IMG/VR virus record: IMGVR_UViG_3300037808_000672
Span: 1 to 35,980 of that record
From: a virus
Length of the DNA stretch: 35,980 nt
Reading direction: 5' to 3' (one strand)
A model generated the notes under the pieces. It made no database searches. It was not told the DNA's origin and saw only the letters and a program-made list of their open reading frames with translations. The position numbers and the translations under genes were made by a program. Of this stretch, positions 1-35,980 are shown one piece after another; within the stretch, counting starts at the first letter, position 1; each line of letters opens with the position of its first letter.

Positions 1-99
1 TCTGTCCAGAATGAGAGGCTACGGATTAAAATTAACAAAATCCAGAGAGGTCGAAAGATATGGGAAAAACTATTTTAAAATGATTTTTGAAATACCAAA
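1..99 (+). repeat. 99-bp exact direct repeat, copy 1 (copy 2 at 35224-35322)
   Basis: Every base from 1 to 99 matches 35224-35322. After that, copy 1 continues with GGATGAAAA and copy 2 with TACCGATGA. The repeat begins exactly at the first base of the window and its length is a common de Bruijn k-mer size, so an assembly-graph branch is likely. A real duplication flanking the terminal methyltransferase gene is the alternative. Confidence 0.95.
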
Positions 100-112
100 G
101 GATGAAAATTGA
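1..112 (+). CDS. 3' part of a small basic protein, cut by the window start
   Basis: The frame is open from base 2 and ends at TGA 110-112, giving about 36 residues. Bases 1-99 are identical to 35224-35322, so this is the C-terminal half of the same gene found intact at 35153-35338, but the last residues differ (PKDEN here, PNTDDE there). It is either the same locus seen again because the genome is circular or permuted, or a second copy. The function is unknown. It overlaps the next small gene by 11 nt. Confidence 0.6.
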   Translation, partial: LSRMRGYGLKLTKSREVERYGKNYFKMIFEIPKDEN

Positions 113-188
113 GCCAGACGATATTGCTATAATCTTTGTTTTTGTGATCTGTATAATTGCTTTTTTGGTTGAGGCAAACCAGATTTAA
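102..188 (+). CDS. 28-aa single-pass membrane peptide
   Basis: ATG at 102 opens a 28-residue frame ending in TAA at 186-188. After a short acidic head (MKIEPDD) it is almost one hydrophobic stretch of about 17 residues rich in Ile, Val and Phe, followed by EANQI. It looks like a single transmembrane segment with no recognisable family. The start overlaps the end of the preceding gene, as is usual in this phage. Function is unknown, and such a short frame could be fortuitous. Confidence 0.4.
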   Translation: MKIEPDDIAIIFVFVICIIAFLVEANQI

Positions 189-197
189 AAAAAAATA

Positions 198-238
198 TTT
201 GGAATTACCGAAATATTGTTTATATTTGTATAGACAAA
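198..238 (+). promoter_or_regulatory. Bacteroidota-type promoter A with dyad over the -7 box
   Basis: TTTG at 198-201 (-33 element), a 19-nt spacer, then TATATTTG at 221-228 (-7 element). TTTGTATAGACAAA at 225-238 is a dyad (TTTGT/ACAAA) covering the -7 box and the expected start of transcription. The leader AAACACAGAAAAAC follows and leads to the ATG at 258. Spacing and dyad recur at 11697, 13892, 19126 and 32030. Confidence 0.75.
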
Positions 239-257
239 CACAGAAAAACTAAACAAA

Positions 258-803
258 ATGAAACCAGTCATAAACACAGATATAAAAAAGCAAACATATA
301 CCCATACTCATAAAAACGGTAGAGTATCTCACGTAGAATATGACCTTTGGAATTTAACATTCAGAGAGGGCAATTTATTTATTCAACACGATAGTATAAA
401 TGCACCAATTCGCAAAATACCAGCATTAAAAATTTTAGACGCTATAAAAAATAATAAGGAAATTGGACTTTATCACAATGATAAACCAAAATACGAAATA
501 GTTGTAAAAAAACTGATTGAGTATAGCTGGAAATATGGAGCAGTTTATTTAACTAAGGATTATGAAAATAATGTTAACGGACTGGATTATTATGTAGGGA
601 AACTAACAGAGGATTATATTCGAGCTACAAAAAAACGTAATCTTCGTTGGAATAGATATAACGAACAAATCAAAATTGAAAAAAACAATAGAAAAATAAA
701 TTTATCTAATGGCGTTCGTACTTGTGGCCGTTGCGGTGGTAGTGGCGTTTATATGCACTACGGGGTATGTTACGGGTGCGGTGGTAGTGGAACAAAAGTA
801 TAA
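258..803 (+). CDS. Early protein with a C-terminal DnaJ-like zinc motif
   Basis: This 181-aa protein is the first gene behind promoter A. The body (residues 1-150) is basic and of no family I recognise. The C-terminus carries two CxxCxGxG motifs, CGRCGGSG (C156, C159) and CYGCGGSG (C171, C174), which match the zinc-binding repeats in the central domain of DnaJ/Hsp40. There is no J domain, so a co-chaperone role is not implied. Small phage proteins with this zinc ribbon may bind nucleic acid or a host protein. The gene is more AT-rich than the late genes, and holds the only GGCC I found in the window (near 726), which fits recent acquisition. Confidence is high for the gene and low for function. 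Confidence 0.8.
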   Translation: MKPVINTDIKKQTYTHTHKNGRVSHVEYDLWNLTFREGNLFIQHDSINAPIRKIPALKILDAIKNNKEIGLYHNDKPKYEIVVKKLIEYSWKYGAVYLTKDYENNVNGLDYYVGKLTEDYIRATKKRNLRWNRYNEQIKIEKNNRKINLSNGVRTCGRCGGSGVYMHYGVCYGCGGSGTKV

Positions 804-850
804 ACCAACGGGGACAACTAAGCCTCCTTAATAATTTAAACACAAAGCAA

Positions 851-1051
851 ATGAAACACATACTAATAGTAACTTGGAAAAAACAGCGTATTCGGGAGGC
901 TTATGCAACGTTGACAGCGATCTGCGACAATCCGAATATGCCAAAGATGGACACGATCAATACGTATCTGTCCAGAAAAAAAATCCCGTATGAAAATGAC
1001 GAGGTAATTATTGAAAAATTCAGAATAAAACGTAAAACCTATAAACGATAA
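851..1051 (+). CDS. Small basic protein of unknown function
   Basis: 66 aa, starting after the A-rich leader AAACACAAAGCAA, a variant of the leader seen before many genes here. The sequence is rich in Lys and Arg, ends KRKTYKR, and contains no obvious domain, signal or membrane segment. It lies 3 nt before the RecT gene and is probably co-transcribed with it from promoter A. A nucleic-acid-binding accessory role would fit the charge but is speculation. Confidence 0.65.
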   Translation: MKHILIVTWKKQRIREAYATLTAICDNPNMPKMDTINTYLSRKKIPYENDEVIIEKFRIKRKTYKR

Positions 1052-1054
1052 ATT

Positions 1055-1825
1055 ATGAGTAACACAGAAAACAAATTGCAGCTTTATACGAAAGTTGCCG
1101 AGCTGACAGGCTACGAAAAAAACCAAGTCGCTGTTATCCAGCAGAATGTAGCAAAAGGAACGACAGCATCTGAACTGGCTTATTTCCTCAACGTCTGCCA
1201 GACGATGGAGCTAAATCCATTTAACAAAGAAGTCTGGTGCTATAAGGATGGCAAAGGAAACTTATTAATTTTCGCTGGACGGGATGGCTTTTTATCCAAA
1301 GCGCAAAAAAACCCAGCGTTTAACGGAATAAGATCCGCAGAGATACGAGAAAATGACGAATGGGAGTTGGACATACCAAACGCACAGATAACGCATAAGA
1401 TCACAGGAAAACAAGCCGAGAGAGGTGCAATCGTTGGAGCTTATGCAATGATCTTTCGAAAAGGTGGAGAACCGACTATCGAATGGGCAGAGTTTGACAC
1501 CTATAACAAACGTTATTCAGCTTGGAAATCACATCCAGCGGAAATGATCAAAAAGGTCGCAGAGGCACACGCATTAAAAAAAGCTTTCGGAATCTCTGGA
1601 ATACAATCCGAATACGACTGGGATGTTAAAAACGGAGTGGCAAAGCCAATTAATACAGAGGATATCGACGCAAAAATTGTAATGTCTGACGATGAAATGA
1701 AAGCCAAAATAAAAGCGATTAACGATCACGATGAACTGGTGGATTTTGCTTTAAATAATGAGATTGACAAAAATCCAGAGCTGTCGGAACTGGTCAGAGG
1801 TCGCATAACAGAATTAAATCCTTAA
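1055..1825 (+). CDS. recT: RecT/Bet-family single-strand annealing protein
   Basis: 256 aa, the usual size for Bet-like recombinases. The core matches the Bet/RecT pattern as I know it: a helical N-terminus ending in FLNVCQTMELNPF, then the KEVWCYKDGKGNLLIFAGRDGFLSKA block, then an aromatic stretch around SAWKSHPAEMIKKVAEAHALKKAF. Proteins of this family anneal complementary single strands during phage recombination and recombination-dependent replication, normally with a 5'-3' exonuclease. The likely partner is the PD-(D/E)XK nuclease at 32350-33183, which is distant on this linear contig but about 4-5 kb upstream if the ends join. The C-terminal 60 residues are acidic, as is common in the family. 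Confidence 0.9.
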   Translation: MSNTENKLQLYTKVAELTGYEKNQVAVIQQNVAKGTTASELAYFLNVCQTMELNPFNKEVWCYKDGKGNLLIFAGRDGFLSKAQKNPAFNGIRSAEIRENDEWELDIPNAQITHKITGKQAERGAIVGAYAMIFRKGGEPTIEWAEFDTYNKRYSAWKSHPAEMIKKVAEAHALKKAFGISGIQSEYDWDVKNGVAKPINTEDIDAKIVMSDDEMKAKIKAINDHDELVDFALNNEIDKNPELSELVRGRITELNP

Positions 1826-1841
1826 AAAAAACACAGAAAAA

Positions 1842-2117
1842 ATGGAAAAATTTTACGAAAAACGCTATTCAAAGCAGTTGGAAACACAGGAGAGATTTAG
1901 AAAAAATATCCTCCAAATTCAGAAAGAAGTATTTGCCCTTGAGCGAAAACTGATTTATCCAATGAACAAGGTTAACAGCCTTTTAAAAAAGTTTGATTAT
2001 TACACCGAAAGCGAACAAACAAAAGGCTATCTAAAAACACAGCTGGAAAAAATACAAAGAGAGCTGGAGGAAATAAAGCAGCTAAAAATTAACACCGAAT
2101 ATCTTGATCTATTATGA
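1842..2117 (+). CDS. Small coiled-coil protein
   Basis: 91 aa, preceded by the AAACACAGAAAAA leader directly before ATG. Nearly the whole chain is charged and helix-favouring (Glu/Lys/Gln/Leu), with Leu and Ile spaced as in a coiled coil over residues 15-85. There is no membrane segment. It overlaps the next gene by 4 nt (ATGA). Function is unknown; its position between RecT and the replication initiator suggests a role in recombination or replication. Confidence 0.65.
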   Translation: MEKFYEKRYSKQLETQERFRKNILQIQKEVFALERKLIYPMNKVNSLLKKFDYYTESEQTKGYLKTQLEKIQRELEEIKQLKINTEYLDLL

Positions 2118-4838: not shown

Positions 4839-4989
4839 GGAGCTACAAAATCTGTTCAGCTGGAAACAGTTTTACCAATGGCAATACAACACAGCCAAAG
4901 CAAAAGAAATCCAGCAAAAAATCGATGTAATTCAACATCTAATCGATACGAGTGAAAACTACCAAAATGGCAAAAAAAGTGGAAATTAA
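4819..4989 (+). CDS. Small helical protein
   Basis: 56 aa from ATG 4819; an upstream in-frame ATG at 4780 would lie deep in the membrane-protein gene and is less likely. The sequence is helix-rich and Gln/Lys-rich (AKEIQQKIDVIQHLID), compatible with a short coiled coil. It ends inside the beginning of the methyltransferase gene. Not recognised. Confidence 0.5.
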   Translation: MPEDLHKELQNLFSWKQFYQWQYNTAKAKEIQQKIDVIQHLIDTSENYQNGKKSGN

Positions 4990-6199
4990 AACGGAACTGA
5001 TTGCCATTACTAAAATTAAAAGCAATCCAAATAATCCGAGAGTATTAAAAGACGATAAATTTAAAAAATTAGTTCAATCGATTAAAGACTTTCCGAAAAT
5101 GCTGGAAATCAGACCTATTGTTGTTAATAACGATATGGTAGTTCTGGGAGGTAATATGCGTTTAAAAGCCTGTAAAGAAGTCGGACTAAAAGAAATTCCA
5201 ATAATAAAAGCAGCCGATTTAACAGAGGAACAGCAAAGGGAATTTATAATAAAAGATAACGTTGGGTTTGGCGAATGGGATTGGGATATAATTGCAAATG
5301 AATGGGATGCAGAGCAGTTGGATGATTGGGGATTAGATATGCCTTTTGATTTCGGAGCAGAGTTGGAAGCAGAGGAGGATGATTACGAGATGCCCGATGA
5401 AATAAAAACAGACATTGTATTGGGGGATTTGATTGAGATTGGAGAGCATAGATTGTTGTGCGGAGATAGTACAGATGCAGACCAAGTGGCAAAGCTGATG
5501 GATGGAGAGATGGCTGATATGGTTTTTACAAGCCCACCATACAACGGCAATACAACAATGTATGATTATGTTATTGTAAACGGTCAGAAAAAAAGGAAAG
5601 ACAAACCTCTTTATCAAGACAACGAAACAGACAACAAAAGTTCTTCGGAATATATTGATTTTTGTAATTCTGTTATGAATTTGTGTTTTTTACACACTTA
5701 CGGATATATTTTTTGGAATATCAATTATAATGCAAAAAGTAGATTTGAATATATTGAAACAATTTATCCTTATAAAGAAAAACTACACGAAACAATAATA
5801 TGGAAAAAAAACGCCATACCAACGGCAAACGGATTGACTAGGAATTTTGAATTTATTTTTATGCTAAAAACAGATGAAGAAATAAACCATCTAAATAAAG
5901 AATACGACGTAACGCATAATGTTTGGGATATTAACAATATAGGAAGTCAGCATAATAATCATAAAGCTTGTTTTCCTGTTGAATTACCAAGTAAAGCAAT
6001 ATCATTAAACGAAAGAACCAAACTTTTATTTGAACCGTTTACAGGCAGCGGTTCAACAATGGTAGCAGCACACCAATTAAAACGCAAATGCTACGGAATG
6101 GAATTAGACCCAAAGTATTGTCAAGTGATAGTTGACAGAATGATGCAACTTGATGAATCTTTGACCGTTAAAATAAACGGAGCAGAATATAAAAAATGA
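4967..6199 (+). CDS. ParB-like nuclease domain fused to a class-beta DNA methyltransferase
   Basis: 410 aa from ATG 4967 (an in-frame GTG at 4952 would add five residues). Residues 10-100 form a ParB/Srx-like domain with the VLGGNMRLKAC box near residue 60. After an acidic linker comes a methyltransferase: motif IV TSPPYN near residues 187-192 and, further on, motif I EPFTGSGSTMVAA near 355-367, then CYGMELDPKYC. Motif IV before motif I is the class-beta order; SPPY fits N4-cytosine or N6-adenine methylation of DNA. This ParB-methylase arrangement is known from many phages, where it protects DNA from host restriction. The central part (about 5550-6050, the expected target-recognition region) is visibly more AT-rich than the flanks, suggesting that the specificity region was exchanged. 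Confidence 0.88.
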   Translation: MAKKVEIKTELIAITKIKSNPNNPRVLKDDKFKKLVQSIKDFPKMLEIRPIVVNNDMVVLGGNMRLKACKEVGLKEIPIIKAADLTEEQQREFIIKDNVGFGEWDWDIIANEWDAEQLDDWGLDMPFDFGAELEAEEDDYEMPDEIKTDIVLGDLIEIGEHRLLCGDSTDADQVAKLMDGEMADMVFTSPPYNGNTTMYDYVIVNGQKKRKDKPLYQDNETDNKSSSEYIDFCNSVMNLCFLHTYGYIFWNINYNAKSRFEYIETIYPYKEKLHETIIWKKNAIPTANGLTRNFEFIFMLKTDEEINHLNKEYDVTHNVWDINNIGSQHNNHKACFPVELPSKAISLNERTKLLFEPFTGSGSTMVAAHQLKRKCYGMELDPKYCQVIVDRMMQLDESLTVKINGAEYKK

Positions 6200-6233: not shown

Positions 6234-6632
6234 ATGGACACTATAAAAAAGGAGCAGAGCAGAACTGTAAAAGCGAAAGCGGATTTTATACAATCTTTGC
6301 AGAAAAGTTTAGGAGTCATAACGACAGCCTGTAAAAACTCTGGAATATCTCGACAGAGTTATTATACGTGGTACAACAACGATTTAGAATTCCAAAAGGA
6401 AGTAAACGACATCGACAATATTGCTCTGGATTTTGCAGAATCTAAATTGCATAGTTTAATACAAGATGGTAATTGTTCGGCAACCATTTTTTTTCTGAAA
6501 ACAAAAGGTAAAGAAAGAGGTTATATTGAACGCATCGAAAATGTCAACAGCCAGAAAGATCCGTTTGCTGATATGTCAGACGATGAAATAAAAACTCGTT
6601 TAAACGAACTTAGATCCAAACGTGATAACTAG
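6234..6632 (+). CDS. terS: Small terminase subunit
   Basis: 132 aa. The N-terminal half is a helix-turn-helix (FIQSLQKSLGVITTACKNSGISRQSYYTW, residues about 18-46), as in phage terminase small subunits and related HTH proteins, followed by a helical oligomerisation region and KERGYIER, which I have seen repeatedly in Bacteroidota phage TerS-like proteins. It lies immediately upstream of the large subunit, overlapping it by 11 nt, which is the standard arrangement. The protein would recognise phage DNA and hand it to the large subunit for packaging. Confidence 0.8.
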   Translation: MDTIKKEQSRTVKAKADFIQSLQKSLGVITTACKNSGISRQSYYTWYNNDLEFQKEVNDIDNIALDFAESKLHSLIQDGNCSATIFFLKTKGKERGYIERIENVNSQKDPFADMSDDEIKTRLNELRSKRDN

Positions 6633-8037
6633 ACAGGAGCTGGAGGAATTAAGGCTACTGGAGGAACTGGAGAGGCGTTCAGCAATAGATTCATTTATTG
6701 ATTTTACTACGTACACCAAATCGGATTATTCAGTTCAATGGTTTCATAAATCTGTATGCGAACACATAGAGGCTTTCGAGAATAAGGAAATAAAAAAGCT
6801 GATGATCTTTGTACCTCCACAGCACGGCAAATCGGAACTTTCAACCAGACGTTATCCAGCTTGGACATTGGGCAGAAATCCAAATCAAAAACTGGGCGTA
6901 ATATCTTATAACCAAACTGTGGCAAGTAAGTTCGGCAAAGACATCCAAAGAATAATGGAGGATCGTACATACAAAAACATTTTTCCCGATTTAAAACTAT
7001 CTGAAAATCTGCGACACGGCTATTTAAAAAACAGCACGGAATTTGAAATACCAGATTTCAGAGGCTCTTTAGTTTCAGTCGGAGTCGGTGGAGCTTTGAC
7101 ATCCAGACAGATCGACAAACTTATTATTGACGATATTTACAAAGATTCAAAAGAGGCGTGGAGTCCAACAGTCCGAGCCTCTGTCTGGGATTGGTTTACA
7201 TCGGTTGCGGAAACCAGATTACACAACGACAGCCAGATATTGGTTGTCTTTACCAGATGGCACGAATACGATTTAGCTGGACGATTGCTACAAGATGAAG
7301 CAGACGAGTGGGAAATTGTCAGCTTTCCAGCAATCAAGATTGGCAGACCAACGAAAAAAGATCCACGAAAAAACGGGGAGGCTCTCTGGGAAAACAGACA
7401 CAGCAAAGAAAAACTAATGAAAGTTAAGCGGAAAAGTCCAGTCGTATTCGCTAATTTATATCAGCAAGATCCAAAGCCACAGGAGGGTTTATTATACACT
7501 AGATTTCAGACGTATAAAAAGCTCCCAGATGAATCAGAAAGAGGAATGGTAAAAGCCTATTGCGACACAGCGGACACAGGATCTGACTATCTTTGTTCGG
7601 TTGTTTATATGGAATCGAATCAACGAGCTTTTGTTCTGGATGTTATTTACACACAAGATCCGATTGAAATCACAGAGGATCTAGTCGCTGACCAATACAC
7701 CAAACACCAAGTTAACGAGGCTGTAATCGAGTCCAACGCTGGAGGTCGGAGCTTTGGTAGAAACATCGAAAGACTACTGGAGGAAAGAAGTAATATAAAA
7801 ACGCATATTGTACCCTATTATCAATCAAAAAACAAAGTAACCAGAATCATAACAGAGGCATCAGCCGTTCAAAATGCTGTATATTTTCCCGAATATTGGC
7901 AGACTAAATTCCCAGAGTTTTACGATGCTATGACTAAATATGGTCGCACAGGAAAGAACGAACACGATGACGCACCAGACACAATAACTGGAGTCGTTGA
8001 GGAACTACAAAGAACTGAACAAGCCTTTATTTTATAG
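6622..8037 (+). CDS. terL: Large terminase subunit (packaging ATPase/nuclease)
   Basis: 471 aa. The start is GTG 6622, overlapping terS; the next in-frame ATG lies past residue 55, next to the Walker motif, so it is too late. The ATPase domain has a Walker A variant VPPQHGKSELS (residues about 63-73) and Walker B KLIIDDIY (about 165-172), then FTRWHEYDLAGRL, the coupling region typical of terminases. The RNase-H-fold nuclease shows the acidic positions expected: YCDTADTGSDY (about 313), AVIESNAGG (about 368) and HDDAPDTITG (about 449). It cuts and translocates concatemeric DNA into proheads. Length is normal for the family. Confidence 0.95.
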   Translation: MITRQELEELRLLEELERRSAIDSFIDFTTYTKSDYSVQWFHKSVCEHIEAFENKEIKKLMIFVPPQHGKSELSTRRYPAWTLGRNPNQKLGVISYNQTVASKFGKDIQRIMEDRTYKNIFPDLKLSENLRHGYLKNSTEFEIPDFRGSLVSVGVGGALTSRQIDKLIIDDIYKDSKEAWSPTVRASVWDWFTSVAETRLHNDSQILVVFTRWHEYDLAGRLLQDEADEWEIVSFPAIKIGRPTKKDPRKNGEALWENRHSKEKLMKVKRKSPVVFANLYQQDPKPQEGLLYTRFQTYKKLPDESERGMVKAYCDTADTGSDYLCSVVYMESNQRAFVLDVIYTQDPIEITEDLVADQYTKHQVNEAVIESNAGGRSFGRNIERLLEERSNIKTHIVPYYQSKNKVTRIITEASAVQNAVYFPEYWQTKFPEFYDAMTKYGRTGKNEHDDAPDTITGVVEELQRTEQAFIL

Positions 8038-10178: not shown

Positions 10179-11450
10179 ATGGCAGAATTTGTAACAAAAT
10201 CGGCTGAAGAATTGTCTGGAATGGATGCGGAGGCTTTAGCTGGTTATTACAATGATCTGAATGCTCACAAAACAAACGAGCTGACAGAACTCATTGAAAG
10301 CAAAGCTGGTATGGAAGAAATCGAAGCTCTTAAAACGGAGCTGAACGATTCCAGAGATCAGCAAATGAAACAACTGAACGCAGTACTTGAAACACAAGGT
10401 CTGGCGATCAAAAAACTATCAAAATCAGAGAAAGTTTTCAAACATCAAACATTGGTGGAAAGCGTCAAAGAAGCTCTGGAGTCTAACAAAGAAAATCTGG
10501 ACAACCTAAAAGCGGAGAATAAATCGACTGCTGCTGGTTCTGGGTTCTCATTTAAGGCTGTCGGAACGATGCTAATAAGCTCGAATGTTACTGGTGGAAA
10601 TGTACCAGTTGAGCAAAGAGAATCTGGATTGAACAGAATCGCAAGACGAGAGCCGTTTGTACTGGATCTTGTAAACAGAGGTACAGCGGTATCGAATGTT
10701 ATCAGCTGGGTTGAACAACAGAATCCAGAAGGTGGAGCTGGTGGAACAGCAGAGGGCGATGAAAAAAATCAAGCGGATTTCGATTTGGTTGTTGTTAATG
10801 AGTCGGTTAAGAAAAGAACCGTATTCATAAAAATTTCAACTGAAATGCTAGACGATATTGATTTTATGGCATCTGAAATCAACAACGAACTGGTAGAGCT
10901 TTTACTATTGGATGTTGACGATCAAGTATTGAACGGAAACGGAGTTGGAACAAACTTAACAGGAATCGTTTCACAGGCTACAGCGTTTGCTGGTGGAACA
11001 TTTGCTGGAACAGTTGACGAGGCGAACGATATCGATGTTTTGACCGTTGCAGCGAACCAGATACGGATCGCACAGCACAACCCAAACTATATATTAATGC
11101 ACCCATCTGATGTAACTGCATTGAAATTAATCAAAGTAAGCACAACGGATCGCAGATATGTAGATCGTTTGATAATGACAGCTGGACAGCTTAATTTGGA
11201 TGGTACTCCTATCATTCAAAATACTGGCGTTGCTGTTGGTACTTATGTCATCGGAGATTTCACGAAATCAACGGTGTTTGACAAAGGTGCGATGAACATT
11301 GACATCGGTCTTTCTGGCGATGATTTCACTAAAAACCTACGAACCATCCTAGCGGAATGGAGAGGTTTACAGCGAATCAAAGGAAACGACACGACTGCTT
11401 TTGTAACAGGAACATTTGTTACTGATGCTGCTGTATTGGAAACTCCTTAA
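10179..11450 (+). CDS. Major capsid protein, HK97 fold
   Basis: 423 aa. Residues about 10-115 are helical and charged, like the delta/scaffolding domain that the protease removes. From about residue 120 the HK97 pattern begins: GTMLISSNVTGGNVP, then GTAVSNVISWVEQQNPEGGAG, KKRTVFIKISTEMLDDIDFM, LLLDVDDQVLNGNGVGTNLTGIV, PNYILMHPSDVTALKLIK and GTYVIGDFTKSTVF. It assembles the icosahedral shell. The strong terminator 40 nt downstream ends the head operon here. Confidence 0.93.
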   Translation: MAEFVTKSAEELSGMDAEALAGYYNDLNAHKTNELTELIESKAGMEEIEALKTELNDSRDQQMKQLNAVLETQGLAIKKLSKSEKVFKHQTLVESVKEALESNKENLDNLKAENKSTAAGSGFSFKAVGTMLISSNVTGGNVPVEQRESGLNRIARREPFVLDLVNRGTAVSNVISWVEQQNPEGGAGGTAEGDEKNQADFDLVVVNESVKKRTVFIKISTEMLDDIDFMASEINNELVELLLLDVDDQVLNGNGVGTNLTGIVSQATAFAGGTFAGTVDEANDIDVLTVAANQIRIAQHNPNYILMHPSDVTALKLIKVSTTDRRYVDRLIMTAGQLNLDGTPIIQNTGVAVGTYVIGDFTKSTVFDKGAMNIDIGLSGDDFTKNLRTILAEWRGLQRIKGNDTTAFVTGTFVTDAAVLETP

Positions 11451-11525: not shown

Positions 11526-11693
11526 ATGTATATAGTTTTAGTCATAACGAATTTGGGTAACGGAGAAATGATCGATTACCATTACGAGCCACGTTTGGAT
11601 CTGGCAATTCGCACAGCAAAACGGCTGAAAGGAAAGGTAATTAACGAGGCTGATTTATTACCAGACGAAAAAAAAATGAAAAAAAAGCTTTGA
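11526..11693 (+). CDS. 55-aa protein directly behind a terminator
   Basis: ATG 11526 to TGA 11691-11693. The sequence begins MYIVLVITNLGNGEMIDYHYE and ends in a Lys-rich tail (DEKKMKKKL). The start lies 4 nt after the terminator T run (TTTTTTTTGCTTATG), so there is almost no room for a leader. Two other genes, at 14215 and 19458, have the same placement. It looks like a compact alpha/beta protein of unknown function. Confidence 0.55.
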   Translation: MYIVLVITNLGNGEMIDYHYEPRLDLAIRTAKRLKGKVINEADLLPDEKKMKKKL

Positions 11694-11696
11694 GAA

Positions 11697-11737
11697 TTTG
11701 GATTTACAGAAATAAGCAGTATATTTGATTCATCAAA
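11697..11737 (+). promoter_or_regulatory. Bacteroidota-type promoter B with dyad
   Basis: TTTG 11697-11700, 19-nt spacer, TATATTTG 11720-11727. TTTGATTCATCAAA at 11724-11737 is a perfect 6-bp dyad around TC, covering the -7 box and the expected start of transcription. The leader ACACAGAAA runs to ATG 11746. The same dyad word occurs at 32058. Confidence 0.75.
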
Positions 11738-11745
11738 CACAGAAA

Positions 11746-11919
11746 ATGAAAGCAACTTTAAAATTTCAAACCAACGAACAAGCCGAGTCATTTGCACTAG
11801 CATACAGCAGAAATACTTTAGGAGGTCATATAGTTGGTAACGCTGAAGTAACTGTTTTTAACATAGGCGAAAATGAAAAAGCATTTATCGAAAATTATAT
11901 AAAACAACTTAACAAATAA
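11746..11919 (+). CDS. Small hypothetical protein, first gene of an accessory cassette
   Basis: 57 aa from ATG 11746; an in-frame TTG upstream lies in the promoter and is rejected. It has a predicted beta-alpha-beta-beta pattern (ATLKFQTNEQAESFALAYSRN, GNAEVTVFNI, EKAFIENYIKQL). It is more AT-rich than the structural genes. Function unknown. Confidence 0.6.
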   Translation: MKATLKFQTNEQAESFALAYSRNTLGGHIVGNAEVTVFNIGENEKAFIENYIKQLNK

Positions 11920-12210: not shown

Positions 12211-12810
12211 ATGGAAATATTAAATCTGTATTGTGGTATTGGTGGAAATAGAAAATTGTGGGGAGATAATCATAATATAGTTGCAGTTGAATTAGATGAA
12301 AAAATTGCTAATAAATATCAAAAACTTTACCCAAATGATGAGGTAATTGTTGCGGATGCACATCAATACTTGTTACATAATTATGATAGATTTGATTTTA
12401 TTTGGAGCAGTCCTCCTTGTCAAACACACAGCCGAGCAAACTATTTTATCAACTACATTACCAATAGCAGATATCCCGATATGAGCTTATGGCAAGAAAT
12501 CATTTTTTTAGAAACATTTTTTAAAGGGAAATACTGCGTTGAAAACGTAATTAGTTACTATCAATATTTTATACCTCCGCAAACAATCGGGAGGCATTAT
12601 CTATGGGCAAATTTCCACATTCCTAAAATTGATTTACCAAAAAATGACATCGGAACAATGATGTCTAAATATGTTGGTACAGGCAAACACGCTCACGATA
12701 AAAGCATTGAGGACAGAAACTGCGTAGATGCAAAACTTGGAGAGCATATTTTAAATATTGCTATGGGCATTTATGAACATAACAACAGAGAACAGGGCAA
12801 ATTATTTTAA
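12211..12810 (+). CDS. Small C5-cytosine-methyltransferase-like protein
   Basis: 199 aa. Motif I LNLYCGIGGNRK (residues 4-15), an acidic VAVELDE (about 25-30), motif IV SSPPCQTHS with the catalytic Cys at 70, motif VI VENV (110-113) and GRHYLWANF near 128 (motif VIII-like) match DNA cytosine-5 methyltransferases. It lacks a clear target-recognition domain and is half the usual length, as in several phage enzymes of this type. It would modify phage DNA against restriction. Codon use is distinctly AT-rich, without the CTGGA/CCAGA words common nearby, and the gene is flanked by a 15-bp repeat, both signs of acquisition. Confidence 0.78.
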   Translation: MEILNLYCGIGGNRKLWGDNHNIVAVELDEKIANKYQKLYPNDEVIVADAHQYLLHNYDRFDFIWSSPPCQTHSRANYFINYITNSRYPDMSLWQEIIFLETFFKGKYCVENVISYYQYFIPPQTIGRHYLWANFHIPKIDLPKNDIGTMMSKYVGTGKHAHDKSIEDRNCVDAKLGEHILNIAMGIYEHNNREQGKLF

Positions 12811-13195: not shown

Positions 13196-13223
13196 AAAAA
13201 AAAAATAAAAAAAATTGAAAACG

Positions 13224-13266
13224 CTAGGATTTACAGAAATAAAATGTATATTTGTAATGAATCAAA
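13224..13266 (+). promoter_or_regulatory. Bacteroidota-type promoter C
   Basis: CTAG at 13224-13227 replaces the TTTG -33 word; a 19-nt spacer is followed by TATATTTG at 13247-13254. TTTG and CAAA (13263-13266) again face each other but with N8 instead of N6. The -33/spacer text GGATTTACAGAAATAA matches promoter B closely. Leader AACACAGAAACA, ATG 13279. Confidence 0.65.
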
Positions 13267-13278
13267 AACACAGAAACA

Positions 13279-13680
13279 ATGACAAAAAAAATCACATTAT
13301 TCGAAGAACTGGCAGAGATCACAAAGCCAGAAATCGCTGGAGTTTCATTTGCGACAGACTACCAGCCAAAATTTAACGAGGCTCTTATTTACGATGTTAA
13401 CAGCGAGGATAAATACACCAGCGGAACTGAGGTGGAATTTCAGCATAATGGCAAACCGTATTTAATCGATGTGCTTTCATACACGCCAAAGGTCGACACT
13501 CGTGAAGATATGATAACAGCGGACATTCACGAGTGGAGAATATTTTACTCCGAGCTGGATATTGCAGAGGATTTTGTTTTGCTCGATCCGTCTATTATCA
13601 AGTTGGAAACTTTACAGGAATTTGAACAAAAGTGCATCGAGCATTTATCGGACACTTTAGATCCGTCAGAAATCGATTAA
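13279..13680 (+). CDS. Acidic hypothetical protein
   Basis: 133 aa, strongly acidic (many Glu and Asp throughout, ending DPSEID). Strand-like segments around residues 36-65 and 75-95 suggest a compact alpha/beta domain. An acidic DNA-mimic (anti-restriction or anti-defence) is one possibility in an accessory cassette, but no family match is visible. It is expressed from promoter C. Confidence 0.6.
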   Translation: MTKKITLFEELAEITKPEIAGVSFATDYQPKFNEALIYDVNSEDKYTSGTEVEFQHNGKPYLIDVLSYTPKVDTREDMITADIHEWRIFYSELDIAEDFVLLDPSIIKLETLQEFEQKCIEHLSDTLDPSEID

Positions 13681-13864: not shown

Positions 13865-13891
13865 ATTTTTTTTAATTTTTTTCTTGAAATA

Positions 13892-13933
13892 CTTGTGTAA
13901 TACAAAAAAAGGTTATATACTTGTATCAACAAA
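13892..13933 (+). promoter_or_regulatory. Bacteroidota-type promoter D with dyad
   Basis: CTTG 13892-13895, 20-nt spacer, TATACTTG 13916-13923, dyad CTTGTATCAACAAA at 13920-13933 (TTGT/ACAA). The stretch from the -7 box to codon 5 of the gene is nearly identical to promoter E at 19149-19200. Confidence 0.7.
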
Positions 13934-13952
13934 CACGGAAAAACTAAACAAA

Positions 13953-14156
13953 ATGAAAAATTCAAACATTATTATAGCAAACAGATCAGCACACCAACCA
14001 ATAACATTCTTTGATAAGATCTTTACAATCGGAGGGATGATAATTCCACAATTTACAGATTCGAAAAATGCAACCAAATTTCACACCAAAGCAGATGCAC
14101 AGGCGATACTTGACAAATTGCCACAGGCAATAAAAGATGATTGCATAATTCTTTAA
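13953..14156 (+). CDS. Small hypothetical protein of a promoter-gene-terminator cassette
   Basis: 67 aa from ATG 13953; the frame is open further upstream through the promoter, but the conserved leader fixes this start. It begins MKNSN, like the MENSN of the gene at 19186, and then diverges. Residues 8-35 are mixed hydrophobic (ITFFDKIFTIGGMII), the rest polar with a DAQAILDKLPQAIKDD helix. A terminator follows 22 nt later. Function unknown. Confidence 0.6.
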   Translation: MKNSNIIIANRSAHQPITFFDKIFTIGGMIIPQFTDSKNATKFHTKADAQAILDKLPQAIKDDCIIL

Positions 14157-14178: not shown

Positions 14179-14202
14179 GGAGGCAAAAGCCTCCTTTTTT
14201 TG
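14179..14202 (+). terminator. Rho-independent terminator immediately before the connector gene
   Basis: GGAGGC and GCCTCC pair around an AAAA loop, followed by seven T. It ends just 2 nt before a TATATTTG box and 13 nt before ATG 14215. Confidence 0.88.
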
Positions 14203-14203
14203 T

Positions 14204-14211
14204 TATATTTG
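14204..14211 (+). promoter_or_regulatory. -7-like box TATATTTG, 3 nt before ATG 14215
   Basis: A perfect TAnnTTTG element is squeezed between a terminator T run and the start codon. Unless polymerase reads through the terminator, the neck/tail operon must start here, giving a leaderless transcript. The -33 position falls in the terminator stem. Confidence 0.5.
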
Positions 14212-14214
14212 CGT

Positions 14215-14946
14215 ATGGCATTTATTCAAACAACGGACTTTCTAGGCGATATAAAAATCAGCCAAAATTCGAAAGAGTCCGCAGACCTCCAGAGCTACAT
14301 TGACCAGACACAGGAAAGGGTGTTGCGCAATTTACTTGGCGATTCGGAGTACAATTTATTTATCGCTGATCTGGTTGCTGGAGTTCCTCAAACTCAAAAA
14401 TGGCTAAACTTTCTGAACGGCTTTACGTGGGTTGACGATTCAGATTACGACAATAATTACACAGGCATAAAACAATTTTTAAGATACTTTACATACTTTG
14501 AATTCGTCAGAAATCTCAACGCAAAAACAACGACCATTGGCATCCAGTTTGCAGATGCTGAAAATTCTTTACAGGCTACGCAGATCCAGAGCAATGTCGT
14601 TACTGAACAGCGATACAATAAGGGCGTTGACCTTTACAAAGAGGCAACGAAAATGCTCCTGTACTACGAAAAGAGAACGGAGAGTTATACAACGATCACA
14701 GAGATCGGAGCTGGAACATATCAAGTCGCATTGTCCAGAAACATTGATTTCGTCACGCTATCCGATACTGTAACGATTCTGGCAACGGATTACACGGTTA
14801 CGGGCGTTGATTATGGACTTTCAACTTTTAATTTTACAGCAGCAGCTGGATTAACTTTTGCGGATAATGGTCAAGTAACTTGGCAGCCATTTCCAAAGCT
14901 CCAGAACGAAGTCTATAACTGGTCTGTAATGGATGGTTTTTTATAA
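14215..14946 (+). CDS. Head-tail connector-like protein with C-terminal beta domain
   Basis: 243 aa from ATG 14215. The first 155 residues are helical (QSYIDQTQERVLRNLLGDSEYNLF, GIKQFLRYFTYFEFVRN), like the head-completion/connector proteins that follow the capsid gene in siphoviruses, and resemble a connector-like family of Bacteroidota phages (possibly DUF6712). Residues about 160-230 add a Thr/Val-rich beta segment resembling an Ig-like fold. Likely a neck protein. It is the first gene of the neck-tail operon. Confidence 0.65.
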   Translation: MAFIQTTDFLGDIKISQNSKESADLQSYIDQTQERVLRNLLGDSEYNLFIADLVAGVPQTQKWLNFLNGFTWVDDSDYDNNYTGIKQFLRYFTYFEFVRNLNAKTTTIGIQFADAENSLQATQIQSNVVTEQRYNKGVDLYKEATKMLLYYEKRTESYTTITEIGAGTYQVALSRNIDFVTLSDTVTILATDYTVTGVDYGLSTFNFTAAAGLTFADNGQVTWQPFPKLQNEVYNWSVMDGFL

Positions 14947-19106: not shown

Positions 19107-19125
19107 GCTTTTTTTTCTGAAAATG

Positions 19126-19166
19126 TTTGGTATTACAAATAAAAGCTGTATACTTGTATCAACAAA
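19126..19166 (+). promoter_or_regulatory. Bacteroidota-type promoter E with dyad
   Basis: TTTG 19126-19129, 19-nt spacer, TATACTTG 19149-19156, dyad CTTGTATCAACAAA at 19153-19166. Leader ACACAGAAAAACTAAACAAA to ATG 19186. Nearly identical to promoter D from the -7 box onward. Confidence 0.78.
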
Positions 19167-19185
19167 CACAGAAAAACTAAACAAA

Positions 19186-19377
19186 ATGGAAAATTCGAAC
19201 AAAAACTACGAACAATTAGAAAACGAGTGTAACAACTGCCTAGAAAATTTATTAAATTTAGATAGAGATCACTTGAAGGACGAACTGGAGCAACTTTTAC
19301 TGTCGCTTCAAGACAAAGGCGCTGACCTAAGCAAATTAAACGACTTTTTATTAAAAGGTGGTTGTAGACAAAAATAA
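19186..19377 (+). CDS. Small acidic Cys-containing protein in a self-contained cassette
   Basis: 63 aa from ATG 19186. It starts MENSN, shared with MKNSN at 13953, then differs. It is helical and acidic (YEQLENECNNCLENLLNLD, HLKDELEQLLLSLQDKGADL), with three Cys. Its own promoter lies upstream and a terminator 40 nt downstream, and the whole 320-bp unit interrupts the tail operon, so it is moron-like. It contains one of only two GCGC sites I found. Function unknown. Confidence 0.65.
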   Translation: MENSNKNYEQLENECNNCLENLLNLDRDHLKDELEQLLLSLQDKGADLSKLNDFLLKGGCRQK

Positions 19378-19416
19378 ATTTTTAAAAACAACTAAACATT
19401 TTGGGGTAATATAGAC

Positions 19417-32010: not shown

Positions 32011-32029
32011 ACATTTTTTTTTGGAATCG

Positions 32030-32071
32030 TTTGGTATTTACAAAAATAATGCTTTTCTTTGATTCATCAAA
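32030..32071 (+). promoter_or_regulatory. Bacteroidota-type promoter F with dyad
   Basis: TTTG 32030-32033, 20-nt spacer, degenerate -7 TTTCTTTG 32054-32061. TTTGATTCATCAAA at 32058-32071 is the same perfect dyad as in promoter B. The leader has the CACAGAAAA unit twice before ATG 32091. It would start the second early module. Confidence 0.65.
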
Positions 32072-32090
32072 CACAGAAAAACACAGAAAA

Positions 32091-32339
32091 ATGAAAACTA
32101 AAGAGATTAAAAAACTACTGAGTAAACTTGAAAATCTAAGAGAAGAAATTGAATTTACAATTCAAGAGATCATAGATGAACGGGAAGAAAAATTTGACAA
32201 CCGTTCGGAAAAATGGCAAGAATCAGAAAAGGCAGATGAGTTTACTGAAATTTCCGATGAAATTGAAAGCATTAAAGATGACTCTATCTTTTCAGTTGAA
32301 GAGGCTATAGAAAGAATTAATGAATTTACAGAACTTTAA
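32091..32339 (+). CDS. Small acidic coiled-coil protein
   Basis: 82 aa from ATG 32091. Almost entirely Glu/Lys/Ile/Leu with heptad spacing (KKLLSKLENLREEIEFTIQE), net acidic, with a short EKWQESEKADEF hinge. AT-rich codon use, unlike the nuclease gene that follows. First gene behind promoter F. Function unknown. Confidence 0.62.
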   Translation: MKTKEIKKLLSKLENLREEIEFTIQEIIDEREEKFDNRSEKWQESEKADEFTEISDEIESIKDDSIFSVEEAIERINEFTEL

Positions 32340-32349
32340 ACACAGAAAA

Positions 32350-33183
32350 ATGAAAAATTACTTACAACGATTTGAGATCCAGAAACCGAATCTGGAAAAG
32401 CGAAAATTAAGCTATTCATCACTAAAGCAATTCGCACGGAGTCCGATACATTACATCCAATATTTGAACGAAAAATTTGAACCAACAGACAGTATGGTTC
32501 TCGGCTCGGTTGTGGATTGTCTTTTATTAACTCCAGACGAGTTTGAAAATAAATATTTAGTAATTCCAAAAATCGACAGGAGATCAAAAGCTGGAAAAGA
32601 GGCTTATGCAGAGGCACAGAGCAGAGCAGCGGAGAACAATCTGACAATCGTTTCAGAGGTTCAATATAACACAGCTCAAATAATGGTCGATCAAGTCTGG
32701 AACAATCCAGAGGCTAAAGCCATTTTAAACGGCACTACGGAAACGCAAAAGAAAATCGAGTGGAAACATAAGGAGCTGCCATTTGTGGGTTATCTGGATG
32801 GAGCTGGAGAATTTCACGATGGAAAAAAATTCATATTCGATTTGAAAACGACATCGGATGCGAGTTTGGATGCGTACACAAAGCAGTTGATCAACTTAAA
32901 ATACGATTTGCAAATTGCTATGTATTATATCGCTTACCAGCGACAGCATTTCGAACAGCCTTTGGCGTATCATATCGTGGTCGAAAATAAAGCTCCGTAT
33001 TCCTGTAATGTATTCAAACTATCAGACACAGTTCTGGAGGCTGGAAAACGAGTTTATGACAGTCTATGCGACAAGTTCAAAGAATGTCTGGAGGATGAAA
33101 ACTGGGGAGCTGGTTACGAATTTTTTCAACAGCCAAACCAGATTTTGGAGCTGCCAGAATGGTACATTAATAAACTAGTATAA
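32350..33183 (+). CDS. RecE-like PD-(D/E)XK exonuclease
   Basis: 277 aa from ATG 32350, which directly follows ACACAGAAAA; an in-frame ATG at 32320 inside the previous gene is less likely. The layout fits the RecE/PDDEXK_1-like exonucleases: YSSLKQFARSPIHYIQYLN near the start, VLGSVVDCLLLTPDEF (about 59-74), FVGYLDGAGEF, then the catalytic FIFDLKTTSD (D and K, about 160-169) and YDLQIAMYYIAYQ. It would resect double strands to feed the RecT-like annealer at 1055. The last 49 nt are repeated with three silent changes at 33875-33923. Confidence 0.82.
   Translation: MKNYLQRFEIQKPNLEKRKLSYSSLKQFARSPIHYIQYLNEKFEPTDSMVLGSVVDCLLLTPDEFENKYLVIPKIDRRSKAGKEAYAEAQSRAAENNLTIVSEVQYNTAQIMVDQVWNNPEAKAILNGTTETQKKIEWKHKELPFVGYLDGAGEFHDGKKFIFDLKTTSDASLDAYTKQLINLKYDLQIAMYYIAYQRQHFEQPLAYHIVVENKAPYSCNVFKLSDTVLEAGKRVYDSLCDKFKECLEDENWGAGYEFFQQPNQILELPEWYINKLV
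33135..33183 (+). repeat. 49-bp imperfect direct repeat flanking a methyltransferase gene, copy 1 (copy 2 at 33875-33923)
   Basis: The 3' end of the nuclease gene, including its TAA, matches 33875-33923 at 46 of 49 positions. All three differences are synonymous in the nuclease frame (TTG/CTG, TAC/TAT, AAT/AAC). Confidence 0.95.
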
Positions 33184-33185
33184 TT

Positions 33186-33875
33186 ATGAAAATATTAGTA
33201 AGCTGTGAAGAAAGCCAAGCAGTAACAAAAGAGCTTAGAAAATTAGGACACGAGGCGTTTAGCTGCGATTTATTACCCTGTTCTGGAGGGCATCCAGAGT
33301 GGCATTTTCAAGACGATGTAATCGAAATAATGAAACACGGTTGGGATATGATGATCTCGTTTCCTCCTTGCACACATTTGGCAACAAGTGGAGCCAGACA
33401 TTTTAAACAAAAAATCGCAGATGGCAGACAGCAACAGGGAATCGATTTTTTTATGGAAATGATCAATGCACCGATTGATAAAATTGCTGTTGAAAATCCG
33501 ATTGGAATAATGTCAACGAAGTATCGCAAACCAGATCAAATAGTACAGCCGTGGCAATTTGGGGATAAAGCACAGAAATCGACTTGTCTTTGGCTAAAAA
33601 ACGTACCAAAACTGGAGCATACGGACATAGTGGAAAAAGGGGAATTTTTTGAATTTATAAGCAAAAAAGGAGTTAAAAAGAAGATGCCGATGTGGTATTA
33701 TAAAGCATTGCAAAATGCCAAAACTCCAGCTGAACGCAGCACGTTAAGGAGCAAAACATTTCAAGGAATTGCCAAAGCTATGGCAGAACAATGGACAATG
33801 GAATCAAATGCAGTTAAAAAACCTAAGTACATACAAACTGACATTTTTAATTATTTACAATTTGAACAAAAATAA
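33186..33875 (+). CDS. Phage DNA cytosine-methyltransferase-like protein
   Basis: 229 aa. KILVSCEESQAVTKELRKLGHEAFSCDLLPCSGGHPEW (residues 2-39) is the start of a common phage methyltransferase-like family, with an AdoMet-binding loop and the acidic residue D28. MISFPPCTHLATSG places a PPC at 60-62, as in motif IV of C5 methyltransferases, and AVENPIG (101-107) is like motif VI. The target domain is short. It probably modifies phage DNA, but the base and site are not deducible. It is inserted between the nuclease gene and a remnant copy of that gene's end. Confidence 0.75.
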   Translation: MKILVSCEESQAVTKELRKLGHEAFSCDLLPCSGGHPEWHFQDDVIEIMKHGWDMMISFPPCTHLATSGARHFKQKIADGRQQQGIDFFMEMINAPIDKIAVENPIGIMSTKYRKPDQIVQPWQFGDKAQKSTCLWLKNVPKLEHTDIVEKGEFFEFISKKGVKKKMPMWYYKALQNAKTPAERSTLRSKTFQGIAKAMAEQWTMESNAVKKPKYIQTDIFNYLQFEQK

Positions 33876-33923
33876 AACCAGATTCTGGAGCTGCCAGAAT
33901 GGTATATTAACAAACTAGTATAA
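33875..33923 (+). pseudogene. Remnant of the RecE-like nuclease 3' end
   Basis: The reading frame QILELPEWYINKLV plus stop is the same C-terminus as the nuclease at 32350-33183, but no start or upstream part is present. Differences to the intact copy are synonymous, so the remnant comes from a related, diverged nuclease gene rather than from a recent copy. It leads directly into the leader of the gene at 33935. Confidence 0.85.
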
Positions 33924-34315: not shown

Positions 34316-34327
34316 TAACCACAGAAA

Positions 34328-34747
34328 ATGAATAAACACACAATCGAAAAGCGTTTGATCCTACATTCAGAAATGACAGGGCAAACGCTGGTGGCAAAAA
34401 ACATTTATTTGTTTGATCGCTGGGAGTCTGACGTATTAACTGTCAGCTACGATGACAGGACAACGGAAATCGAAATTAAAAGGAGTCGGAGCGACTTTCT
34501 GGCTGATTTTAAAAAGGAGGAAAAACATTATCAGACCTCAAACGGTTACGGAGCAAACTATTTTTATTTTGCCTGCCCAGATAAATTGATTACTCTGGAG
34601 GAAATACCAGAATACGCTGGACTGATTTACGTCAATCCTAAAGGAGCTTGGATAAAAAAGAAAGCTCCACAGCTCCACAACGATTTAATGAGCTTTAAAC
34701 AGCTTAAAAAGGTCGCAGAACGCATTTATATAACCAAGCTCCGATAA
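34328..34747 (+). CDS. MmcB-like PD-(D/E)XK nuclease
   Basis: 139 aa. D35 followed by the strand TEIEIKRSRSDFLADF (E49 and K51) forms a PD...ExK signature, then KHYQTSNGYGANYFYFACPDKL and EYAGLIYVNPKGAWIKKKAP, the pattern of small MmcB/VRR-like repair nucleases. Substrate and role are unknown; it may process DNA in phage recombination. It follows the leader ACCACAGAAA and is 1 nt from the next gene. Confidence 0.68.
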   Translation: MNKHTIEKRLILHSEMTGQTLVAKNIYLFDRWESDVLTVSYDDRTTEIEIKRSRSDFLADFKKEEKHYQTSNGYGANYFYFACPDKLITLEEIPEYAGLIYVNPKGAWIKKKAPQLHNDLMSFKQLKKVAERIYITKLR

Positions 34748-34748
34748 T

Positions 34749-35153
34749 ATGAAAAACGAATATATCGGAGTTTTTAAAAAGGATGCCAGAAATAACATAA
34801 TCTGGAAAGACAGACACGATTTCGAAAAGCTGTTGAAAGATCTTCCAGAGGGGAGTTATTATTTTTCCATTAGTAAATACACAGGAAAGCGAACCATTGA
34901 ACAGAATCGGCTGTACTGGAAAATTCTGGCGATTGTATCGGATTACACAGGCTATGAGAAAGACGAGCTGCACGAGATCTTTAAATACAAGTTTCTCAAA
35001 CGCAGCAAACAAGATGAAAATACTGGAGAGATCTTTGAATACATAAAGACCACAACGAAATTAAAAGTTCCAGAGTTTTCGGATTACATCGACAAAGTAA
35101 AGCGATATTGCACAATAAATCTGGGTTGTAAATTGCCCGAAAATTTAACATAA
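34749..35153 (+). CDS. NinB-like recombination protein
   Basis: 134 aa. The core TGKRTIEQNRLYWKILAIVSDYTGY...DELHEIFKYKFL (residues about 45-85) follows the pattern of NinB/Orf-like phage proteins, in which a QNRLYW segment and an ELH..(F)K..FL segment are conserved. NinB-type proteins bind single-stranded DNA and assist recombination mediators. The context (RecE-like nuclease, MmcB-like nuclease) agrees. It overlaps the next gene by one base. Confidence 0.65.
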   Translation: MKNEYIGVFKKDARNNIIWKDRHDFEKLLKDLPEGSYYFSISKYTGKRTIEQNRLYWKILAIVSDYTGYEKDELHEIFKYKFLKRSKQDENTGEIFEYIKTTTKLKVPEFSDYIDKVKRYCTINLGCKLPENLT

Positions 35154-35338
35154 TGAGCAGACGAAAATACATATTAAAAAGACCAAAAAATAAAGAACTG
35201 GAGGCAAAAGAAATAGAAGAAACTCTGTCCAGAATGAGAGGCTACGGATTAAAATTAACAAAATCCAGAGAGGTCGAAAGATATGGGAAAAACTATTTTA
35301 AAATGATTTTTGAAATACCAAATACCGATGACGAATGA
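35153..35338 (+). CDS. Small basic protein whose 3' part is repeated at the window start
   Basis: 61 aa, starting MSRRKYILKRPKNKELEAKE and followed by a compact region with YGLKLTKSREVERYGKNYFK. Very basic at the N-terminus. Bases 35224-35322 are identical to 1-99; the C-terminal six residues differ. Its TGA overlaps the ATG of the methyltransferase gene. Function unknown. Confidence 0.6.
   Translation: MSRRKYILKRPKNKELEAKEIEETLSRMRGYGLKLTKSREVERYGKNYFKMIFEIPNTDDE
35224..35322 (+). repeat. 99-bp exact direct repeat, copy 2 (copy 1 at 1-99)
   Basis: Identical to the first 99 bases of the window. It lies inside the gene at 35153-35338. After it, the sequence leads to a methyltransferase gene, whereas copy 1 leads to a membrane peptide and the early promoter. 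Confidence 0.95.
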
Positions 35339-35874
35339 ACGTGTTGGAACTATTTGCTGGAAGTAGGTCGATCGGAAAAGTCTGCGACAAAATGGATGGT
35401 GTCAATGTTTTTAGTGTTGACATAGAGCCATTCGAAAAAATCAACTTGCAAGTTGATATTGAACAAATAAAAATAACAGACATTCCATTCAAACCAGCTG
35501 TTATCTGGGCATCAATTCCCTGTACAACGTACTCAATCGCAGCGATTTCGCACCATCGAGATATGGGAAAGCCAAAAACAGATTTTGCAGAAAAATCAGA
35601 TCGATTATGTTTGAAAGTTCTGGAGCTAATAAAATATTTTGACTGTATTTATTACATTGAAAATCCACGAGGTTATTTACATAAAATGGATTTTATGAAA
35701 TCACTACCAAGAACAACAATTTGGTATTGTCAATATGGCGATTTTAGAGCAAAACCGACAATGATTTTCAGTAATAACGTTTATAATCCAATGTTTAATC
35801 CAGACGGTTGGAAACCTAGACCAGAGTGCCACAATGGAAACAATAATTGTCATCACGAGGCAGCTCCGAGATGA
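35335..35874 (+). CDS. C5-methyltransferase-like protein, interrupted by an in-frame TGA
   Basis: 179 aa to TGA 35872-35874. Motif I VLELFAGSRSIGK (residues 3-15), an acidic SVDIEPF (27-33), motif IV WASIPCTTYS with Cys63, and motif VI YYIENPRGYL (106-114) identify a DNA cytosine-methyltransferase-like enzyme of a type common in phages. The frame does not end naturally: after the TGA it stays open to the end of the window. The stop replaces what is a Gly codon in relatives as I remember them (APRGSKTGTQG), a single G-to-T change. The protein may still fold, since the lost part is the C-terminal helix region. The start overlaps the previous gene by 4 nt. Confidence 0.72.
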   Translation: MNVLELFAGSRSIGKVCDKMDGVNVFSVDIEPFEKINLQVDIEQIKITDIPFKPAVIWASIPCTTYSIAAISHHRDMGKPKTDFAEKSDRLCLKVLELIKYFDCIYYIENPRGYLHKMDFMKSLPRTTIWYCQYGDFRAKPTMIFSNNVYNPMFNPDGWKPRPECHNGNNNCHHEAAPR

Positions 35875-35980
35875 TCTAAGACAGGAACACAGGGATTAAA
35901 GGGAAATTACGAACGATCAAAAATACCAGAGTTATTATGTCGAGAAATAATCGAAAGCACAGCAAACAAATTAAAATTGA
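35875..35980 (+). pseudogene. In-frame remainder of the methyltransferase after the TGA, cut by the window end
   Basis: The same frame continues for 35 codons without a stop: SKTGTQGLKGNYERSKIPEL and then LCREIIESTANKLKI. TGTQG and the IPELLCREII segment are the usual C-terminal elements of this phage methyltransferase family. There is no plausible separate start. Either the TGA is a nonsense mutation or sequencing error, or it is read through. Confidence 0.75.

Follow-up and report, generated by a model that had tools for sequence, protein, structure and literature searches.

The removal of restriction sites from phage genomes has long been known. In the part of the survey by Rusinov et al. 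(2018; PMC6286503) considered here, 7.1% of the pairs of a phage and an orthodox Type II site are eliminated, compared with less than 0.5% for other types of restriction-modification (R-M) systems; no avoidance is given there for Types I and IIG, and elimination is commonest in non-temperate phages. The part of Shaw et al. (2023; PMC10359461) considered here describes broad-host-range plasmids that avoid R-M targets, more strongly in smaller plasmids and with broader host range, and reads this as adaptation. Here, we describe the single IMG/VR virus record IMGVR_UViG_3300037808_000672 (35,980 bases; GC content 37.7%), which was analyzed at full length and is called the window below. Five tetranucleotides and a dozen further pentanucleotides have been eliminated from it, very probably because many Type II restriction enzymes, probably in several hosts, have exerted lasting selection on this apparently lytic Bacteroidota siphovirus. 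As in the cases of Rusinov et al. (2018), Type II sites are nearly eliminated (observed/expected < 0.1) in an apparently non-temperate double-stranded DNA phage. Unlike the norm in that survey, a contrast limited to the part considered, so many words are gone at once, asymmetric ones included. The plasmid study differs, as far as the part considered goes, in that it concerns plasmids and mainly 6-bp targets rather than a phage with near-total loss. Among open-licence papers, judged by title or abstract opening, none was found on a phage that has lost a comparable number of motifs, and the breadth of avoidance here is unusual.

An earlier note on this DNA, counting by eye, had found no CATG, CCGG, or CGCG, a single GGCC near 726, and two GCGC. 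The computed count over all 35,980 bases gives zero for the first three words, where base composition and a maximal-order Markov model predict 118 and 75 for CATG (z −10.3), 44 and 37 for CCGG, and 44 and 29 for CGCG. The single GGCC (44 and 42 expected) is indeed at 726. GCGC occurs three times (44 and 30 expected), at 1301, 14325, and 19319, of which the first had been overlooked. The note's rough expectations from base composition, about a hundred for CATG and some dozens for each GC-only word, agree with these values. It had also described GATC, AGCT, and TCGA as plentiful and the depletion as selective. These three occur 148, 200, and 162 times, and the other eleven 4-base palindromes lie between 0.64 (ACGT) and 0.99 (AGCT) of the Markov expectation, with ACGT (69/108) and AATT (346/432) mildly low. 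Two relatives have the same losses: G001, 95% identical to the window over 28.6 kb aligned, with one CCGG and two GGCC as exceptions, and G002, 81% identical over 27.2 kb aligned, which lacks CTAG in addition. The five palindromes had been named from the window alone and are lost in the 81%-identical G002, too.

As a null model, codons were shuffled in such a way that protein sequences, codon usage, and dinucleotides did not change (60 shuffles for the palindromes). Within open reading frames (ORFs), the observed/expected counts are CATG 0/45, CCGG 0/14, CGCG 0/31, GCGC 3/43, and GGCC 1/26. None of the three features held constant accounts for the loss of the palindromes. The same null reveals lost asymmetric words (GTCTC 0/31, CTCAG 3/45, GGTGA 1/23, CCTGC 2/34), degenerate words (CASTG 0/39, CGSCG 0/22, GCSGC 0/20, CCWGG 1/18, GTSAC 3/22), and the gapped word GGNCC (0/14). 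GCNNGC is found once against 46.5 expected in the window, and at 0/69 in the window and G002 pooled when words explained by other avoided motifs are excluded. Altogether, 22 of the 496 testable 5-mers fall below 10% of expectation in the window, those bearing a lost 4-mer included, and the distribution has a clear bottom. In the survey of 39 sets described below, the window has 12 eliminated 5-mers that hold no eliminated 4-mer, in addition to its five lost 4-mers. The earlier note had proposed selection by restriction enzymes with 4-bp sites. The selection is supported by these data, whereas its confinement to 4-bp palindromes is not.

From the word tables, 25 motifs were picked by hand, the 20 beyond the palindromes on data from the window and G002.

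1..35980: whole record, 25 restriction-site-like motifs depleted, 39 matches remaining

ORFs hold 35 matches against 618 (mean of 12 shuffles) or 685 (one shuffle), figures that are descriptive only. Strand-biased avoidance of the Type III kind was considered and rejected, as in the window both orientations of the avoided asymmetric motifs are depleted where the expectation suffices; the weakest value is 3/8.6 for CCTGA, and several motifs have fewer than six expected in one orientation. Separately, some words are lost in one orientation in the ORFs of the window and G002 (CCACT 1/18 vs AGTGG 33/45; ACCGC 1/16 vs GCGGT 14/19), for which strand-biased enzymes might be the cause.

The four palindromes that remain are the following.

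726..729: the only GGCC, in ORF 258-803, in a stretch absent from G001
1301..1304: GCGC in the recT-like gene, common to the window and G001
14325..14328: GCGC in ORF 14200-14946, common to the window and G001
19319..19322: GCGC in the variable stretch 19178-19414, absent from G001

Two of three exceptions had been placed in recently acquired cassettes. These two do lie in stretches absent from G001, but with the additional GCGC they are two of four. A concentration of leftover sites in recent cassettes was not substantiated, as the excess is weak (p = 0.054): the 25 motifs have 12 sites against 124 expected in stretches absent from G001 and 23 against 494 in the core.

The avoidance is maintained. 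We counted the palindromes created at synonymous differences between the window and each relative and compared them with random placement. The five palindromes were gained once against 45.5 expected at the 958 synonymous differences to G001, and never against 113 expected at the 2859 differences to G002. The control palindromes GATC, AGCT, TCGA, and GTAC were gained 76 times against 64 expected and 261 times against 183, respectively. With isolated differences only, the five palindromes stand at 1 against 19.8 (G001) and 0 against 18.4 (G002), the controls at 33 against 27.1 and 23 against 30.9. For the 20 other motifs, 14 synonymous gains compare with 117.5 expected in G001 and 37 with 318.7 in G002, a test that is partly circular. 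All 25 motifs are also rarely gained at amino-acid-changing differences (G001 8 vs 51.4 expected; G002 11 vs 206) and at non-coding ones (2 vs 9.7 and 2 vs 34.8). The 5-mer controls gave 72 against 47 and 288 against 131; as they included words already known to be enriched, the argument rests on the palindrome controls. Selection keeps purging new sites.

The set of lost words changes between sister lineages. Nine of the 12 5-mers eliminated in the window pass the same thresholds in G002, where CCCGC stands at 0/8. GGGAC and ACCTG are eliminated in the window and G001 and kept in G002 at 16/18 and 13/30. Conversely, G002 alone has lost CTAG (0/about 27-28), GACGC (0/20), CCGTC (0/28), CGCTC, and ACGGG, which stand at 42-98% of expectation in the window and G001. 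Thus, single words are switched on and off, which is not how a global bias would act. The lost words also resemble restriction sites. Eight of the 12 eliminated window 5-mers belong to a list of 26 classes of 5-bp Type II sites, compared with 24 of the 484 tested (p = 5e-9); the list was drawn up with the eliminated words already in view, which may have biased its content. Across 39 surveyed sets, 17 of the 48 distinct eliminated 5-mers are in the same list, and 2 of the 15 sets with at least four eliminated 5-mers (L090 and L129) lack a significant Type II enrichment. Enzymes whose sites are among the lost words would include NlaIII, HpaII, HhaI, HaeIII, BsmAI, TspRI, HphI, FauI, and Cac8I.

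A compositional or codon-context effect common to the phage and the chromosome of its host would be a different cause, and partly depleted words (CTTC, AGTG) and enriched ones do show higher-order context effects. Twenty chromosome pieces of Bacteroidota, taken from genomes with earlier search matches rather than drawn at random and including one of 7.7 kb, gave pooled Markov ratios of 0.84 for CATG, 1.01 for CCGG, 0.85 for CGCG, 1.00 for GCGC, and 0.77 for GGCC. Single palindromes are low in four pieces (CCGG 0/14 and 0/10; GGCC 2/24 and 4/41), and the full loss of the five occurs in none; these pieces come from other Bacteroidota, and the true host may differ. G260, a genome with 40% GC and restriction endonucleases of the HaeIII and HpaII families, was considered as a guess for the host. 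Over 160 kb, its lowest codon-null ratio among 4- and 5-mers with an expectation of at least 25 is 0.41 (CCWGG), and the guess was dropped, as no word is eliminated there. The earlier note had called for a check of candidate host genomes; the chromosomes sampled here, 20 pieces and 160 kb of G260, do not have the same set of depletions. As the losses persist under the protein-, codon-, and dinucleotide-preserving null, as none of the chromosome pieces has the set, as 36 of 89 sets of the window and its relatives have no lost tetrapalindrome, and as hardly any word is lost in Cellulophaga phage phi18:1 and G009, we regard a compositional cause as very improbable.

These 89 sets are the window and its relatives of at least 7 kb, with shorter loci and duplicate contigs dropped. 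At least five lost tetrapalindromes are found in five of them (the window, G001, G002, L100, and L103, the last two of which look near-identical). G005, whose terminase is 60% identical, has kept CATG (86/90) and has lost GATC (1/76) and GGCC (1/22). The codon null was applied to 39 sets, chosen by hand, several for their palindrome losses, and partly related to each other. Counted as 4-mers plus further 5-mers, the losses are 5 + 13 in G001 and 6 + 18 in G002, followed by 4 + 9 in L166, 5 + 6 each in L100, L103, and L188, and 4 + 6 in L168; at the low end are phi18:1 (0 + 1) and Flavobacterium phage 11b (none). The clade of the window is thus the extreme of the 39 sets, in a ranking that is rough because set lengths differ (about 20-40 kb) and the power is unequal.

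Flavobacterium phage vB_FspS_snusmum9-1 (MN812237, L235), analyzed over 35,351 of its 38,743 bases, has a related capsid and strong losses of CGCG, CTAG, and GATC, with weaker ones of GGCC, GCGC, and CCGG. Under the codon null, its losses amount to three 4-mers plus two further 5-mers, and they include neither CATG nor the window's asymmetric motifs. Four IMG/VR contigs with capsids 55-56% identical (L100, L103, L090, L092) have all lost CATG, CTAG, GATC, and CTCAG; GGCC is lost in the first three, and CASTG in all but L090. Unlike the window, these 21-kb pieces have lost GATC and CTAG, GCGC is not listed for them, and fewer words are gone. As a separate observation, the asymmetric word CGTC stands at 0/17, 0/17, and 0/13 in L100, L103, and L092, where CTAAG and CTCAG are lost too, with AGCTC in L100 and L103. 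In L166, L168, and L188, terminase-bearing contigs of three metagenome-assembled genomes (MAGs), CCAG stands at 0/42, 0/53, and 1/33, and CCTTC and GGACC are also lost; a restriction site of just four asymmetric bases is a possible reason for the CCAG loss.

The recurrence of losses in other contigs also bears on self-immunity, by which the phage or co-infecting phages make site-specific nucleases against host DNA, so that their own genomes must avoid the sites. The window does encode nuclease-like ORFs (PDDEXK, 32320-33183; MmcB-like, 34328-34747), although their family names suggest proteins of recombination or repair. The enzymes of one phage could not account for more than 20 unrelated motifs, and many other contigs have likewise lost GGCC, GATC, and CTAG. 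Of the explanations weighed here, this is the one to which we give the least credence.

Another alternative is mutational erosion, in which cytosine methylation by the host or the phage leads to C-to-T decay of CCGG, CGCG, GCGC, GGCC, and CCWGG with no need for selection through cleavage. In its favor, a high GC content is common among the lost words, and three C5-methyltransferase-like ORFs are present in the phage. The methyltransferase ORFs of the window are as follows.

4952..6199, + strand: ParB domain and N6/N4 DNA methyltransferase (PF02195, PF01555; phrog_498); no match in G001, ParB part alone matched in G002 and G005
12211..12810, + strand: short C5-cytosine methyltransferase-like ORF (PF00145; phrog_363); no match in G001, G002, or G005
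33186..33875, + strand: DNA methyltransferase-like ORF (phrog_757; no Pfam match); no match in G001, 77% homologue in G002
35335..35874, + strand: C5-methyltransferase-like ORF; matched in G001 (99%), unlike the other three

Erosion is hard to reconcile with the loss of CATG, GTCTC, CASTG, GGTGA, and CTCAG. Moreover, total absence requires that new copies are purged, as the 0 gains against 113 expected indicate, and G001 has the same losses, although a search there found just one of the four methyltransferases (no profile search for other G001 methyltransferases was made). We therefore consider erosion highly unlikely as the cause. The case of G001 also means that the avoidance neither depends on these three methyltransferases nor is replaced by them; the window's methyltransferases may protect sites that are not avoided. 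Beside one of them, a 65-base repeat (85%) of the 3′ end of the exonuclease gene, at 33119-33183 and 33859-33923, brackets ORF 33186-33875 and looks like a footprint of its insertion.

We infer that the sites have been removed by restriction enzymes acting in the phage's hosts, of which there would be several. Phage DNA would enter the cells unprotected and, over many generations and probably in more than one host strain or species, would meet a large number of Type II enzymes, some cutting palindromes of 4-6 bp and others recognizing asymmetric or gapped sites. Genomes bearing a site would be cut and lost, until nearly all sites were gone, largely via synonymous change, and new ones would be purged. 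Selection by restriction is supported by the missing site gains, the motif turnover, the enrichment of Type II sites, and the chromosomes without the set. We think it rather likely that more than 20 restriction specificities have been purged at once, including asymmetric words, some of which are maybe Type IIG sites.

Several observations weigh against selection by restriction in the hosts. To our knowledge, the eliminated words CCTGC, CGCCG, GACCC, and ACCTG match no restriction site. The four chromosome pieces with a single low palindrome count here as well, as does the choice of the non-palindromic motifs on the window and G002, which makes the G002 test partly circular. Some words are over-represented, namely CTGGAG/CTCCAG (63 vs 19 expected in window ORFs) and, also strongly, CCAGA and AGCTC. 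These were considered as mere by-products of avoidance, an idea that was given up because a null excluding avoided sites lifts the expectation for CTGGAG only to 29, so that avoidance explains its enrichment (63 vs 29) only in part. The search for the host, which did not lead to one, adds further points. A capsid search of genome contigs gave 35 pattern matches and no relative. Among the terminase relatives in sequenced genomes (142, of which 80 were kept, at most 52% identical), there was no close prophage; the first-listed one is a MAG labelled Selenomonadales. Spacers in 395 Bacteroidota genomes, with two first-look candidates scored per genome, gave no clear match, beyond weak or short candidate matches in 24 and 9 genomes. 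Finally, restriction endonucleases of the HaeIII family were found in 4 of 296 Bacteroidota genomes, and those of the HpaII family in 8, 7 of them above the cut-off. As for the R-M search proposed earlier, fitting families occur in the phylum, which was sampled rather than the host itself, but they are sparse. Because of this sparseness, a phage that has lost over 20 sites would seem to have had either one host rich in R-M systems or a long succession of hosts. We favor the second, given the analogy to plasmids of broad host range.

If selection by restriction is indeed the cause, one could read from the word table which R-M systems an uncultured population of Bacteroidota hosts possesses. Enzymes would be predicted for CCTGC, CGCCG, GACCC, and ACCTG from the window and for CCGTC, CGCTC, and ACGGG from G002; we know of no enzyme for the latter three. 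Restriction enzymes in uncultured hosts could then be deduced from virus sequence alone, with specificities that methylome data could confirm, and the different lost sets of related phages would serve as an internal control separating restriction pressure from compositional effects.

The siphovirus genome in the window, from an apparently lytic phage of Bacteroidota, is probably complete. The likely genes are all on the + strand, with 52 ORFs listed; minus-strand ORFs of up to 227 amino acids overlap + strand genes. The gene set is of the siphovirus type (terminase, portal, protease, HK97-like capsid, tape measure, endolysin, RecT, and exonuclease). Two of these genes are given here with their relatives.

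6622..8037, + strand: large terminase; relatives in sequenced genomes mostly in Bacteroidota-titled records (67 of the 80 kept)
10179..11450, + strand: major capsid protein; among isolated phages, those of Flavobacterium come nearest (50% identity over 75%)

By terminase, the nearest isolated phages are Porphyromonas and Bacteroides phages. The nearest named-phage portals are those of Parageobacillus and Geobacillus phages (26-28% identity), followed by Flavobacterium and Cellulophaga phages. A PHROGs scan of 40 of the 52 ORFs revealed no integrase or repressor family, which suggests an apparently lytic lifestyle; the larger ORFs outside the scan (recT, terminase, portal, capsid, and exonuclease) were assigned otherwise.

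Two repeats concern the ends of the record. Positions 1-99 are repeated at 35224-35322, and 105-112 at 35973-35980. The end of the contig runs on into position ~113, as in G001, which means a circular or permuted genome. An alternative path that skips the methyltransferase ORF 35335-35874 is marked by the 99-base repeat, which suggests that genomes with and without this ORF coexist in the sampled population.

A promoter-leader is present in six copies (192-263, 11691-11762, 13218-13289, 13887-13958, 19120-19191, and 32025-32096), which are 61-81% identical to the first; five of the six adjoin stretches unmatched in G001. From this arrangement, they appear to be interchangeable cassette sites with a common leader. 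Three of the six contain TAnnTTTG, which we take to be a Bacteroidota promoter element.

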